39,937 nt of DNA from Leucothrix mucor (GTDB lineage: Bacteria; Pseudomonadota; Gammaproteobacteria; Thiotrichales; Thiotrichaceae). Positions 7,598 to 14,283 of the stretch are shown piece after piece. Made by a program: the position numbers and the translations under genes. The notes beneath the pieces are model-generated. The model was not told the origin of the DNA, did not search any database, and worked only from the letters and a program-made list of their open reading frames with translations. Each line of letters opens with the position of its first letter. Position 1 is the stretch's first letter. The DNA lies in assembly GCA_015663245.1 (NCBI GenBank), contig DQSN01000138.1, positions 1-39,937 on the forward strand, given 5' to 3'.

Positions 7598-9565
7598 ATG
7601 TCATTACGCAACTTATTACCCCAAGGATACAAAAGTGTATTACCGATTGGTTTTACGCTAATTATTTTTCTGATGATATTCACATCGTTCTTTGTAGCGA
7701 TGCAAACGAAAAATAGTTCCGAATTAATACTAGAAACCGTTAAGCAACATAATCTAAATAGCAAGCTACTTAATAATATGTCCCAAGCAGTGATCAATCG
7801 TTCAATTATTTTGGTTGAAATGTTACAGGCAGATGACCCTTTTGTTATTGATGAGCTATATATTCAACTCCTTACAGAAGCGAGTAATGTAACGGTTTCT
7901 AGAGCAGAATTTATGCAGCAAGACCATGATGATGAGACTCATCGTTTGCTTTATCAGCAGGGGAGTATATCTCGGGTTAATGAGCCGTTACAGAATCAAG
8001 TCTATGACTTAGCGTTGAATGAAGAAAAAGAACAGGCAATATTGCTTTTTTCAAAGAAAACTTTACCGCTACAGAAAAAAAACTTTGAGCTTATTAAAGA
8101 GATGGAAGCTCATCAATATTTAAAGGCAAAAAAGGCTTTGCAGCAATCAACAGAGAATAACTACTCTGTATATTCTACTGTTTTCATGGTTGATGTTTCA
8201 AGTATTCTAATAAGCATATTGCTGGCTTTATACCTTTTGAAGCAACAGACAAAAAATAACCGTGAGTTATCCGTTCTGGCAACAACCGATGCATTGACAG
8301 AGCTACCTAATAGGGCAAATTTTATTGAAAATATAAATGCACAGATTAGCAGAAATCCCCAGTCTATTTTTGCAGTAATATTTTTTGATATAGACTATTT
8401 TAAGAGTATCAATGATAACTATGGTCATGAAGTTGGGGATGAAATCCTAAGAAAATTTGCTGCTAAGCTTAAATCGAATATTAAACACAATGATGTTTTG
8501 TCACGCTTTGGTGGTGATGAGTTTGTTTTATTGTTGCAAAGTATACATTCCAAGGAAGAGGCCATCACCTTTATTAGTCAGCTATCAGAAAGCTTGGATA
8601 CGTCCTTTATGATTAATAATAATGAAATATTTGTCTCTGCCAGTATTGGTGCAAGTTTATATATTAAGGATGGTTCGGATGCAAAGGCACTACTAAAAAG
8701 CGCTGATATTGCTATGTATTCTGCGAAAGATTCAGGTAGAAATTGCTACCAGTTCTTTTCTAAAGCAACCAGCGACAGATTGGAGAAAGAGCATCGCATT
8801 AGTCATGCGCTTCATACTGTTCTTAAAGATAAAAATAGTAATAAAGAACTACGTTTAGTCTATCAACCACTTTTGAATATCGCTCAAGGTGATATGACAG
8901 AATGCGAAGCGCTAATCCGTTGGACAACGGCTGATGGAGAGATGGTTCCTGCCGATGACTTTATAGCTCTTGCGGAGAAGAGTAATTTAATAGAAAAAAT
9001 CAACCTTTTTGTTATCGATGAAGTGTGTAAGCAACAATGTGAATGGCAACGTTTGGGCGTGAAAAACATGCGTATTAACATTAATTTATCAGGCAATAAA
9101 ACCATTTTTGATAAACTATTGCGTCAGTTTAAAGGGCATTTAAAAAGATTAAACTTAAACCCCGTAATGTTTGGTATTGAGCTAACCGAACGAACACTCT
9201 ATGAAATATCCCAGGAGACCATTGATGAGCTTGATGAGATTCGTCAGCAAGGCATGAAAATATCAATTGATGATTTTGGAACGGGATATTCATCATTAAG
9301 CTACTTGAAAAAATTACCCATTACGACACTTAAAATTGATAAAGAATTTATAGCAGGCTTGCCTGATGATAAAGATGATCAGGCACTCGTGAAAACAATT
9401 ATAGCCTTAGGGCATGCTTTAGATCTTGATGTTGTCGCAGAAGGCGTCGAAACATTAGAGCAACTAGAGTTTCTAAAAAATCATTCTTGTAATATCGCAC
9501 AAGGGTATTATTTCCATCGTCCACTAGAGCATAAGCAAATACCGCATTTGAAGTTGGTTGCTTAA
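7598..9565 (+). CDS. Membrane-anchored GGDEF-EAL protein with N-terminal periplasmic four-helix-bundle-like sensor
   Basis: TM near N-terminus and at ~200 aa; intact FGGDEF site; EAL domain with CEALIRW, IDDFGTGYSSLSYLKKLP and VVAEGVET. Confidence 0.93.
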   Translation: MSLRNLLPQGYKSVLPIGFTLIIFLMIFTSFFVAMQTKNSSELILETVKQHNLNSKLLNNMSQAVINRSIILVEMLQADDPFVIDELYIQLLTEASNVTVSRAEFMQQDHDDETHRLLYQQGSISRVNEPLQNQVYDLALNEEKEQAILLFSKKTLPLQKKNFELIKEMEAHQYLKAKKALQQSTENNYSVYSTVFMVDVSSILISILLALYLLKQQTKNNRELSVLATTDALTELPNRANFIENINAQISRNPQSIFAVIFFDIDYFKSINDNYGHEVGDEILRKFAAKLKSNIKHNDVLSRFGGDEFVLLLQSIHSKEEAITFISQLSESLDTSFMINNNEIFVSASIGASLYIKDGSDAKALLKSADIAMYSAKDSGRNCYQFFSKATSDRLEKEHRISHALHTVLKDKNSNKELRLVYQPLLNIAQGDMTECEALIRWTTADGEMVPADDFIALAEKSNLIEKINLFVIDEVCKQQCEWQRLGVKNMRININLSGNKTIFDKLLRQFKGHLKRLNLNPVMFGIELTERTLYEISQETIDELDEIRQQGMKISIDDFGTGYSSLSYLKKLPITTLKIDKEFIAGLPDDKDDQALVKTIIALGHALDLDVVAEGVETLEQLEFLKNHSCNIAQGYYFHRPLEHKQIPHLKLVA

Positions 9566-9584: not shown

Positions 9585-12290
9585 TTATTTAAAATAAGCT
9601 GATATTAATTCGTCAATAGGAAGGTGCTTAAGTCTAGCGAGCAATAAAGTCATCATCGAGGCTAATAAAATCATAATCATAAGTAGTTGTGGGCGTGTGA
9701 ATATCTGCTTTATCAATATGAATATCGCACTTTTTAGGCTACTAGAATTCAATACGTCACGTTTTGTGAACTCTACGATGTAGAGCAGAATAAGCAATAT
9801 GGTAATGGTGATTAAAAAAAGTAAGAGGTTAGTGTAATAACCATAACTATTTTCATAGACATCTTTATCAAAAGCCCCCGCAGTTTCCTGTTGAATACTT
9901 AATAGCGCTAATAGTTTATAACGAACTTTATCGATTAGGCTAAGGTCGCGTGTCTCAATGTCATCATTAATGATCTTTAGTAGCTTATTTATATCCTTCG
10001 TGTTTTTCAGTCCCTCGGCGTTGATAATTTCATTGTAGTGTTTTATTTGATCAATGGAGGGTGGAACTAGTCGACGAATTGTGGTGGGTTTATCTTTAAA
10101 GGCAACGCCTAGTGAGTTTTGCAAGTTGCTGGGGATACGGCTGATACTGGCTTGAAATTCTTCAAACTTTTTACTCAAACTCTCCTTGTCTTCTTCTAAT
10201 TCTAGGATAATTAAGTCATTGGTAATGGTTTTTACATGACCTATATCATAATTAAAAATAGGTATTTTCGATTCTGGTTTTGGGATATTTATAGACGCTG
10301 ATTTTTGCTTGTATTGAATGGTTAGTGCAGCATTTTTTTGTGGTGATAAATCTCCATTAATCATTTGTATATCAATTTGATAGGATAAATTGTGAGTAGT
10401 AAAAGCGCCCATAATACTGATGTTTTCATTATCACTGATTATTTTAGGAATAATGACGGGTGTTTGATGTAAGAGTACATAAATGCTGACAGCTTTATCT
10501 TTAGTAAAATGTATTATATTTTCTAAACGGTCAATATCATCTTTTTTATTGGCTTCAAAATAAATTTGTTGGCAGTTGTTAGTATCAAGAAAACCTTTAA
10601 TAGGTTTCTGTATACGTTTTAAATAATCAGAAATGGACTCATTTTCCAGTGTCCTTTCTTTGCTATGTGCCGAGTTGCTGATATGTATGCGGTCATATTT
10701 TGTTTTTAAAGCTTCGTAGTTTGTGCTGTGCTCTGTGAAAAAGCAGGATGTTTGTTGGTTGAAGCGTGTAATGTTGGGCGCACTTCCTTGCAGTAAGACA
10801 TAAGATTTAATAATGGTCTCACGGTGTAAATTTTCTATCTTTTGTGTATCAATATAACCGTCATCACTTTTAATGATACTCGGTGGAATGATGCGGCTAT
10901 TAATAACTTTTTTCATTCGACCTTTGATAAAATTATCAATGCTACCACCGTGAAGCTTATAGCTATAAGCTTTGGCTTGTAAAATACGGCGTAAAGATTT
11001 GCGAAAACTTTGTTGATTCCCGCTGCGAATATAGTTTGATAGACGGTTTTTTACGCGAATAATTTCTTCAACAGTAATAACGCCGTACTTATTAATACCT
11101 GTGTATTTATGTTTTTCACTGGATAGAATGACTTTGGCAAACATTAAAATATCATGCCCTGCGTCAAAGGCATCAATTGCTAATGCGGCATAGTCAATAC
11201 CGCTATAATAATCATTATTGGATATTGTACTGTCGCCATTTCCTGAGCGATTTTTTTCGTACTCAGTAATTGACCCCATTCCCATATCATCAGTAATCAC
11301 TAATTTATCATCATATTTTAGAGAATTAATATTACTGAGAGAGTTGTTGTTTGTACGAATAATGCCTGTAATTTTTTTGCTAATAGTCGCGGGTGTTTTT
11401 CCATCAATAAAGTCGATGGCAATATGTGATGTCATTATGCCATTAAGGTAATCTTTCAAGGCATAATAGGGCGTCATTTGTTGCTTGAAATCTTGTTCAG
11501 TTCCCATAAAACTAGCAACACCTGCATGTGGATTAACATCAATTTTTCCTAAACCTGGAAAGTGTTTGCCGATGACGGTAATACCTGCTTCGCGTAAGCC
11601 TTTGATGTAATAAGCAGCAATACGACTCACACCTTCTGGGCTACTGGAAAAACTACGGTTTTTGAGTAATGAGTTATAACTACCTTGTAGGCTCTCCTCG
11701 ATATCCAAAACAGGACCCAAAATCATGTTGATGCCACTACTTGCTAGTTGGTAGCCAACTACCTTCCCTGTATCTCCAATTAAGTCTTTGTCTTGTGTAG
11801 TCGCTAAAGTGAGTGCTGGTGGGGGAGGGGTGAGAACACTTTTTATCGGGTTAAATCGTGGTCCTTCAAAGTCAGCAGCAACAAATAAAGGGGTCTTTAA
11901 ATGCTTGTTTGCAAGGGCGCGATATTGCATGTTGGATACAAAATTAGTCACAATACTGATGCGTTCTTCCTCCGTCTCAGCTCGTTTTTTTAAATAATTA
12001 AAATTAGAGCCACGTAGGATGATAGAACCAAAACCTTCATCTTCGATCAGTTTCTTATGGACAGGATTTCGATCTTGAGTTTTAGAAAAGTGAATGGGAA
12101 TGTTGATCATAAAGAGTTGACCAACACCGTCATCTACATTAATAGTTTGCACCCATTCTTTAATTTTTTGTTGTTCCGAAGTGCTTAGTGCTAAAGAGTC
12201 TGCATTGGCGTTGAAGCTCAAAAATAAGCCACATATTATCAAGCATACGCTTTTGATAAATGTTTGTTTTAGGAGTCTATTGTTTTTCAT
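9585..12290 (-). CDS. Glycoside hydrolase family 3 (NagZ-like) secreted protein with long C-terminal extension and C-terminal TM helices
   Basis: N-terminal signal peptide (TFIKSVCLIICGLFLSFNANA); GH3 motifs GKHFPGLGKIDVNPH and LVITDDMGMGSI; ~400 aa unassigned region; hydrophobic segments near the C-terminus (YYTNLLLFLITITILLILLYIV, LLMIMILLASMMTLLLA). Confidence 0.85.
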   Translation of the reverse strand: MKNNRLLKQTFIKSVCLIICGLFLSFNANADSLALSTSEQQKIKEWVQTINVDDGVGQLFMINIPIHFSKTQDRNPVHKKLIEDEGFGSIILRGSNFNYLKKRAETEEERISIVTNFVSNMQYRALANKHLKTPLFVAADFEGPRFNPIKSVLTPPPPALTLATTQDKDLIGDTGKVVGYQLASSGINMILGPVLDIEESLQGSYNSLLKNRSFSSSPEGVSRIAAYYIKGLREAGITVIGKHFPGLGKIDVNPHAGVASFMGTEQDFKQQMTPYYALKDYLNGIMTSHIAIDFIDGKTPATISKKITGIIRTNNNSLSNINSLKYDDKLVITDDMGMGSITEYEKNRSGNGDSTISNNDYYSGIDYAALAIDAFDAGHDILMFAKVILSSEKHKYTGINKYGVITVEEIIRVKNRLSNYIRSGNQQSFRKSLRRILQAKAYSYKLHGGSIDNFIKGRMKKVINSRIIPPSIIKSDDGYIDTQKIENLHRETIIKSYVLLQGSAPNITRFNQQTSCFFTEHSTNYEALKTKYDRIHISNSAHSKERTLENESISDYLKRIQKPIKGFLDTNNCQQIYFEANKKDDIDRLENIIHFTKDKAVSIYVLLHQTPVIIPKIISDNENISIMGAFTTHNLSYQIDIQMINGDLSPQKNAALTIQYKQKSASINIPKPESKIPIFNYDIGHVKTITNDLIILELEEDKESLSKKFEEFQASISRIPSNLQNSLGVAFKDKPTTIRRLVPPSIDQIKHYNEIINAEGLKNTKDINKLLKIINDDIETRDLSLIDKVRYKLLALLSIQQETAGAFDKDVYENSYGYYTNLLLFLITITILLILLYIVEFTKRDVLNSSSLKSAIFILIKQIFTRPQLLMIMILLASMMTLLLARLKHLPIDELISAYFK

Positions 12291-13573
12291 ATCAAGCCCC
12301 GTATTAAATTATAAAGTCCAAGTGCAAAAACAGAGGAGGCGAAAATGGCGATAAGCGTAACGATAAAAATAGCAAAGGTGATTTTAGCAGGTCGTTTGGG
12401 CGCTAATGGATTATCACCTGATAGGTGAAATTTCTTCTTATCTTTACCAAATAACCGTCCACTTTTAGCTCGCATGTAAAGAGCGGCAGTTCCAAACTCT
12501 ATCTCATTGGGTTGGTTGTAAATAGCTAGGCGTGCCATGCTCAAAGAGGTGTCGATAGGGCTACCTCGTGATAAAGCACCATAAAGCGTTTCGGAAAAAA
12601 TAATGGCAGATCGGTCGGTAATCACATATTGCATAGCTAGTACAGCAGGTACACCTTTTTTGACCACACTTTGTGCTACACCCGAGAAAATATTCTCTTT
12701 GGAGGTAATGCCACCCTCGCAGGCATTAAGGACGATAAGCCTAGAGGCATCACTACTCTGAAAAATAGTAGCAATACGTTGTGAACTTACTTGTAAGCCA
12801 TTGCCATCATCGTCTTCAATAACAAGTACGCCTTCCTTACGGCGTTGATTAAAATCACCATGACCGATGAAATGGATGATATGAAAATCATGTTTATTGA
12901 TAGTTTTAGTAATCTTGCGCAAAGTAGCATGCTCAATACTTTTGAAATACACACGGCTTTTATTTTCTAATGGCATGAGTGCTTGTTTTAATTTTGATAG
13001 TTCTTTTTTGACATTAAGTGGAGGGTAATCTTTAGGGTTAGAACTAATAACCAATATTTTTAATGGAGGGGTTATTTGCATCTGCTTTACAGCAATGCTG
13101 AGCTCCATATAGCGAACAATAGAGGTGTCACCAGACAAGGTCAGAAAAACATCGGAGTGAGAGTCAAATAAATACTCCCAAGGAATGTTGATTAGCTCAG
13201 GGTTTTCGGGGAAACGTAGACGAATACGTAAACCCGCTTTCTTGTTTTTGGCAGATATTTTGCTCTCACGATAGATTTCGGAGACATTTTTTTGGAATAC
13301 CGCATTAAAAAGTTTTTTTCCAAAATCACGTATTTCTTCAGCAATAACTTCAACAGAGCCATTACGCAGGTTTAAATCATTATTGGGGGCGTTTTCATTG
13401 AGAATGAAACTACGTGTTTGTGAAAGTCTGCGGCTATAGTGTTCTAGCTCATGCTGCTCAAAGGGAAAGTCAAAGAGATGACGTGCCTCACCATTGGGTG
13501 ATGCAATAACGCGTGCTTGATATTTGTCGCTACGCTTAGTGATTTCCAAGTCAAAATTTAAGTATTTATCCAT
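12287..13573 (-). CDS. CHAT-domain (caspase-like) protein with C-terminal TM anchor
   Basis: ILVISSNPKDYPPLNVKKEL...IIHFIGHGDF (catalytic His) and RLIVLNACEGG (catalytic Cys); C-terminal ITFAIFIVTLIAIFASSVFALGLYNLI. Confidence 0.9.
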   Translation of the reverse strand: MDKYLNFDLEITKRSDKYQARVIASPNGEARHLFDFPFEQHELEHYSRRLSQTRSFILNENAPNNDLNLRNGSVEVIAEEIRDFGKKLFNAVFQKNVSEIYRESKISAKNKKAGLRIRLRFPENPELINIPWEYLFDSHSDVFLTLSGDTSIVRYMELSIAVKQMQITPPLKILVISSNPKDYPPLNVKKELSKLKQALMPLENKSRVYFKSIEHATLRKITKTINKHDFHIIHFIGHGDFNQRRKEGVLVIEDDDGNGLQVSSQRIATIFQSSDASRLIVLNACEGGITSKENIFSGVAQSVVKKGVPAVLAMQYVITDRSAIIFSETLYGALSRGSPIDTSLSMARLAIYNQPNEIEFGTAALYMRAKSGRLFGKDKKKFHLSGDNPLAPKRPAKITFAIFIVTLIAIFASSVFALGLYNLIRGLI

Positions 13574-13675: not shown

Positions 13676-14076
13676 TTTCCTTAAATACATCCAAGTTGAA
13701 GTCTCCCAACGCAACTTTGGATCTTATTACTGAAAGCGTGTTTATTTGTGCTGATAGCTCAAGAATAGTAAAAATTATCGTTAATATATTTTTATAAGGT
13801 GATTTTTTATAAATTTTTTTGATAAACAGAGGTAACCACCTTGATTAAAGGTGATTTTGATTAAGTTGATTGGAGTTTGGTGCAGAAAGAACCGTTACTA
13901 TTTATCACGAAGTGAGTCGTAATAGTTGCTTTATAACGTCGATTTTCGTGAGAAATAGTGGGAGTTTTAACAAACTGCAAATAATCTGATTTGATTAGAG
14001 TTTTCTGAAAGGGCAGAAAAAATATTTGCATTGAGGGAGCAGAAGAGGTTGTTTGTGAGCAAGTCCTTCTGTGTTT

Positions 14077-14283
14077 TTACTGGAGAGAGCCTAGTCTTTC
14101 ATTGAATGAGTTATGCAACGTGCCTTCGAGGTCTTTGGCTTGTTCTAGTGTTTTTAGCTCAAACTCAAGGAGGTTAGTGTGTTGATCTCTATCTGATGAT
14201 ACGCTGTTACTTTCGCTACCACAGGCAGATAAAAGTAATAAAGATGTAAGTGCTAATAGCACTGAATATGATAATTTAGACAT
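14077..14283 (-). CDS. Small lipoprotein (68 aa)
   Basis: MSKLSYSVLLALTSLLLLSACGS signal peptide with LSAC lipobox. Confidence 0.7.
   Translation of the reverse strand: MSKLSYSVLLALTSLLLLSACGSESNSVSSDRDQHTNLLEFELKTLEQAKDLEGTLHNSFNERLGSLQ

Follow-up and report, generated by a model that had tools for sequence, protein, structure and literature searches.

The stretch of Leucothrix mucor DNA considered here, termed the window, is 39,937 nucleotides long (NCBI assembly GCA_015663245.1, contig DQSN01000138.1). It contains a two-gene operon, in which a gene for a CHAT protease is followed by a gene for a membrane protein with a glycoside hydrolase family 3 (GH3) domain resembling that of NagZ. Comparative analysis suggests that the operon encodes an undescribed membrane sensor that reads cell-wall fragments and switches on a protease. 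The two proteins would form a split transmembrane (TM) receptor-protease, in which a disabled NagZ-like domain in the periplasm senses N-acetylglucosamine (GlcNAc) or muropeptides and controls a CHAT protease in the cytoplasm. This preferred reading is tentative, and it is given just short of an even chance.

Conservation and mobility of the gene pair

Both genes lie on the minus strand, with the CHAT gene upstream and the GH3 gene downstream in the list of open reading frames (ORFs). The 4-nt overlap of their ends, noted in an earlier sequence-only reading of the window, is borne out (Table 1). Nine genomes of the genus were sampled, including the window genome (G000; 2.7 Mb in 252 contigs). 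Five of these carry the CHAT gene (G000, G019, G020, G024, and G026), and the same five have the long GH3 gene directly after it. The gene ends overlap by 4 nt in three genomes, abut in one, and are separated by 11 nt in one. The assemblies that hold the orthologous loci are metagenomic and bear the labels Thiotrichaceae, Cocleimonas, Leucothrix, and Aquificaceae, of which Aquificaceae is evidently wrong. Across the five genomes, CHAT orthologues are 69–80% identical and GH3 orthologues 64–79% identical. In addition, the ratio of nonsynonymous to synonymous substitution rates (dN/dS) is about 0.07–0.13 for both genes wherever dS is computable (three GH3 pairs with saturated dS are excluded from this range). 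This indicates strong purifying selection, and thus neither gene is decaying. Pseudogene drift of the GH3 gene was considered and rejected on the basis of dN/dS and the invariant residues.

The pair does not occupy a single site. It is found on the proS side in G000, G019, and G026. In G020 and G024, genes other than the pair adjoin proS, and the pair lies elsewhere, beside other housekeeping genes. Because the chromosomal places used by these two sublineages are unrelated, the pair, judged from these loci, moves as a unit. Co-retention through relocation is the strongest evidence that the two genes form a single functional unit.

The sequence-only reading had made its proposal depend on adjacency of the two genes in other genomes. 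Such adjacency is not lacking, since all five carriers keep the genes side by side; it holds within the genus but not across lineages. An orthologue of the pair outside the genus was not found in the genomes searched, where sampling beyond the bacterial family was partial and further members may have escaped detection. A genome-wide scan gave no orthologues beyond the same four, and long relatives of the window type were not found among viral contigs, phages, E. coli genomes (DNA search), 387 genomes of the class, or 311 genomes of another order.

Altered NagZ motif and predicted membrane topology

The GH3 protein has a GH3 barrel by Pfam (PF00933, E=2.2e-40; 139.5 bits against a cut-off of 27). 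By sequence it is not a normal NagZ. It scores 84.6 bits against the NCBIfam equivalog PRK05337, under the 207-bit cut-off, and in an alignment of the five GH3 orthologues with 16 canonical NagZs, the catalytic Asp-Ser-His (DSH) motif of NagZ is replaced by Asn-Pro-His (NPH). In the same alignment, D140, R212, K242, H243, H255, and D334/D335 match conserved positions of the canonical NagZs.

The acid/base of NagZ is an Asp-His dyad located in a mobile loop (PMC5104943), and this dyad has been described as essential for NagZ catalysis (PMC5063960). As quoted in PMC12176254, B. subtilis NagZ becomes a poorer catalyst with higher affinity when the Asp is changed to Gly. The fungal protein Ngs1 is a NagZ-like GH3 protein with a broken dyad and an intact GlcNAc pocket, and it senses GlcNAc (PMC5063960). 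The window protein combines the same features at the sequence level, namely a NagZ-like GH3 domain, a disabled dyad, and retained GlcNAc-binding residues (criteria from PMC5063960). Because all five orthologues have Asn for the dyad Asp and Pro next to it, binding by the GH3 domain is more likely than efficient cleavage. A NagZ-type activity on wall material, as the sequence-only reading proposed, is therefore not supported in that form; its description of the GH3 signature was right as to the domain but overlooked the change from DSH to NPH. Moreover, four of the five pair-carrying genomes have an ordinary NagZ gene as well, the exception being G019 with a completeness of 69%. Wall recycling would therefore be independent of the GH3 protein.

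Hydropathy predicts that the GH3 protein is exported, with its barrel in the periplasm, and is held by two C-terminal TM helices. The signal peptide, GH3 domain, and C-terminal TM segments first described for this protein are all retained in this picture, but the unassigned part spans about 430 residues (391–820) rather than about 400. Within it, a fold search with a model of the fragment 475–659 (pLDDT 59) brought up no match at E<=0.001, and the presence of a GH3 C-terminal domain is for this reason not asserted. The end of this fragment was likened to such a domain by eye only, and BLAST gave a weak collinear match to G901, a genome from elsewhere in the phylum (E 0.2–0.9). The C-terminal halves of window-type, Vibrio-type, and ordinary two-domain GH3 proteins were not alignable by HHalign. 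Pfam finds no GNAT acetyltransferase domain in the GH3 protein.

The CHAT protein is well above the curated Pfam cut-off (PF12770, E=1.9e-26; 93.6 bits against 24). Its signatures HFIGHGD and LNACEGG are present as first noted, the His/Cys dyad is intact, and by sequence it is a clan CD caspase-like peptidase. Residues 281–320 are 93% invariant among the five orthologues. The C-terminal TM helix and the cytoplasmic protease domain put forward in the sequence-only reading are supported by hydropathy, which predicts anchoring in the inner membrane. The chain stops 10 residues past its own TM helix; there is no outside module in the same polypeptide, and the GH3 protein is the second chain.

Table 1. 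Features of the operon and its two products in the window
Feature	Positions	Strand	Details and basis
CHAT gene	12287-13573	-	428 aa; N-terminal domain, CHAT peptidase domain, C-terminal TM; ORF, Pfam
CHAT N-terminal domain, residues 1-75 (FDLEI..YQARVIASPNGEA)	13349-13573	-	Alignment; common to single-chain CHAT proteins of the bacterial family
CHAT peptidase domain, residues 83-356	12506-13327	-	Pfam
Predicted catalytic His238 (HFIGHGD)	12860-12862	-	Invariant in five orthologues, conserved in relatives
Predicted catalytic Cys285 (LNACEGG)	12719-12721	-	Invariant in five orthologues, conserved in relatives
CHAT TM helix, residues 400-418	12320-12376	-	Hydropathy
CHAT stop/GH3 start overlap, 4 nt	12287-12290	-	ORF positions
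GH3 membrane-protein gene	9585-12290	-	901 aa; ORF, Pfam
Signal-peptide-like segment, residues 1-30 (...NANA/DS)	12201-12290	-	Hydropathy
NagZ-like GH3 barrel, residues 52-390	11121-12137	-	Pfam and further sequence comparison
K242-H243, GlcNAc-binding residues of NagZ, retained	11562-11567	-	Alignment; KH role from PMC5063960
N253-P254-H255, replacing the NagZ Asp-Ser-His catalytic motif	11526-11534	-	NPH in 5/5 orthologues, DSH in 16/16 canonical NagZs
D334-D335, NagZ nucleophile position, retained	11286-11291	-	Alignment
Residues 480-660, predicted alpha/beta, possibly a diverged GH3 C-terminal (ABS-type) domain	10311-10853	-	Unrecognised by Pfam, HHalign, and fold search
Residues 661-820, mostly helical, least conserved part (stalk)	9831-10310	-	Conservation, structure model
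TM1, residues 821-839	9774-9830	-	Hydropathy
Basic inter-TM loop, residues 840-868, predicted cytoplasmic	9687-9773	-	Net charge +3 to +4 in 5/5
TM2, residues 869-887	9630-9686	-	Hydropathy

Several side observations concern the surroundings of the operon. A GGDEF-EAL gene (7598-9565, plus strand) separates the operon from proS in the window, and that place has no GGDEF-EAL gene in G019 and G026. The proS-side site is variable, as G021 (L096 7356-14495) and G025 (L098 1649-3181) carry a 712-residue lipoprotein-like gene instead of the operon, and G021 adds OmpA-like, membrane, sigma-factor-like, and kinase-like genes, as assigned by eye. Upstream of the CHAT gene, positions 13690-13760 on the minus strand (CGCTTTC...GTTGCGTTGGGAGACTTCAAC) are partly conserved in the three proS-linked orthologues and not in G020 or G024; this DNA has no match in Rfam. 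Between a FemAB-like gene and the CHAT gene lies a 68-residue ORF (14077-14283, minus strand) with a lipoprotein-type signal (LLLLSACGSES) and no Pfam match.

Relatives of the two proteins and known systems

Outside the genus, three long GH3 proteins likewise have NPH, a signal peptide-like start, and two C-terminal TM helices. Two are encoded on Vibrionaceae plasmids (WP_012548893 and WP_277685966), and the third is found in G901. The Vibrionaceae barrels and the five barrels of the window type form one clade (SH-like support 0.99, or 0.998 without the NPH columns), which the G901 barrel does not clearly join. The Vibrionaceae proteins differ from the window protein in having no CHAT partner, and the region between barrel and TM helices is not confidently alignable. 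In the sampled set, two C-terminal TM helices are present in 8/8 NPH proteins and in 0/56 proteins with DSH or DTH (Fisher p = 2e-10, which overstates the case because the eight proteins represent two or three lineages only and are not independent). Loss of the catalytic Asp thus appears to go with membrane tethering.

The CHAT protein also has membrane relatives. Its N-terminal domain followed by CHAT is common, by alignment, to single-chain proteins of the same bacterial family. In these, the cytoplasmic CHAT domain and a TM helix are followed in the same polypeptide by a predicted extracytoplasmic module, whereas the window encodes its outside module as a protein of its own, in the gene that follows CHAT in the operon. 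The modules include an FGE module, predicted to be periplasmic (L071 and L072), and an LprI-like module, also predicted to be periplasmic (L074 in G024). Since LprI proteins are a family of lysozyme inhibitors, modules connected with the wall recur on CHAT. A Nostoc plasmid protein fuses CHAT to CHASE2. Because of these LprI-like, FGE, and CHASE2 relatives, a cytoplasmic CHAT joined across the membrane to an outside module is, by predicted architecture, a recurring design. Three side observations concern loci of such genes. The window genome itself has a second membrane CHAT gene of the LprI type, apparently split by a contig break between C98 (L069 16772-17936) and C164 (L126 37-699). Beside the CHAT-CHASE2 fusion of Nostoc punctiforme pNPUN01 (L128 1-4692) are a trypco2 gene and another CHAT gene. 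In G059 (L071 9245-14983), a transposase-like gene lies between two related CHAT genes, one with TM-FGE and the other with a long charged coiled region and four TM helices.

The CHAT His/Cys peptidase domain is shared with TPR-CHAT, which acts with gasdermin or with the CRISPR effector gRAMP (Craspase), and with SAVED-CHAT, and the window CHAT protein distantly matches structure 8tl0, also of a CHAT protein, by sequence (E=1.3e-9). Unlike these systems, the window CHAT has no TPR or SAVED domain, no gasdermin, and no adjacent CRISPR or CBASS genes. No TPR family was found on it by Pfam, and Pfam and further profile searches gave no gasdermin match in the operon, where the partner is the GH3 protein. 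A PADLOC match to SAVED_CHAT is limited to residues 213–344, and no cyclase was found beside the CHAT gene by Pfam or by PADLOC on the neighbours, so that the operon does not conform to SAVED-CHAT or CBASS.

The GH3 protein can be compared in the same way with NagZ and Ngs1. With NagZ, including the two-domain B. subtilis NagZ (YbbD), it shares the barrel by sequence, the KHFPG motif, the GlcNAc residues, and the nucleophile, and possibly an alpha/beta second domain. It differs from NagZ in its NPH motif and in its predicted export and two-helix tether. With Ngs1 of Candida and Trichoderma it shares the NagZ-like GH3 domain, the disabled dyad, and the retained GlcNAc pocket (PMC5063960, PMC12176254). 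However, Ngs1 is an intracellular acetyltransferase fusion, while the GH3 partner here is a CHAT protease across the membrane, and Candida Ngs1 has lost the His of the dyad, whereas the window protein has lost the Asp and kept the His. In the open-access literature searched, no paper was found on a CHAT protease with a glycoside hydrolase, on CHAT with CHASE2, or on RADAR with a glycoside hydrolase.

Proposed mechanism and competing explanations

In the preferred reading, the GH3 protein would be exported and anchored in the inner membrane by its two C-terminal helices. Its NagZ-like barrel would bind GlcNAc-containing wall fragments and, because the catalytic Asp is Asn, cleave them poorly or not at all. 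Binding, or an altered status of the wall, would be relayed to CHAT by way of the TM helices and the basic loop on the cytoplasmic side, perhaps through physical contact. A helix of its own would anchor CHAT in that membrane and leave the His/Cys protease domain facing the cytoplasm. Once activated, it would cut one or more cytoplasmic targets, and the outcome would probably be cell arrest or death, or an envelope response, after attack on the wall.

Several points weigh against this mechanism. Some hydrolysis by the GH3 protein may occur, since H255 and the nucleophile are kept. The basic loop between the TM helices is only 29 residues long, and only 8 in G901. The full-length AlphaFold model of the GH3 protein was discarded as too poor for use (mean pLDDT 36). 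None of the three NPH-type loci outside the genus has a CHAT neighbour, and the wider NPH-type family thus does not require CHAT as a partner. Finally, the operon stands in a housekeeping setting, with no PADLOC match among the tested window neighbours. The defence-island location raised by the sequence-only reading was thus not found for the operon among these neighbours, and was found only for the Aliivibrio relative. To one side of the NPH-type gene of Aliivibrio salmonicida lie a PD-T4-5 gene and a CBASS cyclase with its SLATT effector, and to the other RADAR rdrA-rdrB, a context that represents one locus and guilt by association. This relative gives indirect support to an anti-phage defence role of the operon, which is possible. 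As a side observation, the surrounding part of plasmid pVSAL840 (L164 8206-29617) is a dense defence island, in which the PD-T4-5 Abi gene, the CBASS cyclase/SLATT genes, and RADAR are accompanied by toxin-antitoxin genes, GTPase-associated genes, and a metallophosphoesterase gene.

The same sensor-protease pair could instead tune wall synthesis or recycling, serving envelope homeostasis rather than defence or death. The housekeeping surroundings in all five genomes, at proS in three and at other such genes in two, the lack of defence genes among the neighbours tested with PADLOC, and the steady purifying selection on both genes are consistent with such a role. It is unlikely, though to be taken seriously, as four of the nine genus genomes have no copy, three of these being at least 90% complete, which is unusual for a core wall function, and plasmids carry the closest relatives from outside the genus, one of which lies in a defence island. 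CHAT proteases of known systems cut partner proteins, as TPR-CHAT does with Csx30 and with gasdermins, and the CHAT protein might accordingly control a GH3 partner that is still an enzyme, either an effector or a wall-remodelling hydrolase, by cutting its cytoplasmic loop or a membrane helix; this corresponds to the wall-cleaving module of the sequence-only reading. Retention of the nucleophile Asp, the dyad His, and all of the sugar-binding residues fits this explanation. Nevertheless, only the 29-residue loop is within reach of a cytoplasmic CHAT, and in eight of eight NPH-type proteins Asn stands in for the dyad Asp, next to Pro. With the dyad reported as essential for NagZ catalysis (PMC5063960), an active GH3 enzyme under CHAT control is unlikely.

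The remaining explanations dispense with proteolysis or with a functional link altogether. CHAT as a non-proteolytic scaffold, acting by conformational coupling only, has nothing specific in its favour and is very improbable in view of the invariance of the His/Cys dyad and surrounding motif across five species at 69–80% identity, as well as the near-invariance of residues 281–320. That CHAT and GH3 are functionally unrelated neighbours by chance is scarcely credible. The occurrence of NPH-type GH3 without CHAT in other lineages could be read in this way, but the gene ends overlap or abut, the genes co-occur in 5/5 carriers, and the pair is kept at different chromosomal sites. A chance neighbourhood was rejected on the basis of this conserved adjacency and relocation to unrelated sites.

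A broader form of the split receptor-protease reading is on balance unlikely. In this form, a disabled NagZ would have become a membrane-spanning muropeptide receptor that gates a caspase-like protease, and the cell would recognise the breakdown of its own wall by phage, predators, or antibacterial enzymes, a bacterial pattern recognition answered by regulated proteolysis. NPH-type GH3 proteins with two C-terminal helices would then be a general undescribed sensor family of several systems. Most of what is known of CHAT proteases concerns executioners that act in the cytoplasm when nucleotides or RNA trigger them. If the preferred reading is true, the operon shows how such proteases may answer damage beyond the cytoplasm, and a GH3 protein with NPH, a signal peptide, and two C-terminal helices is a recognisable and searchable protein type.

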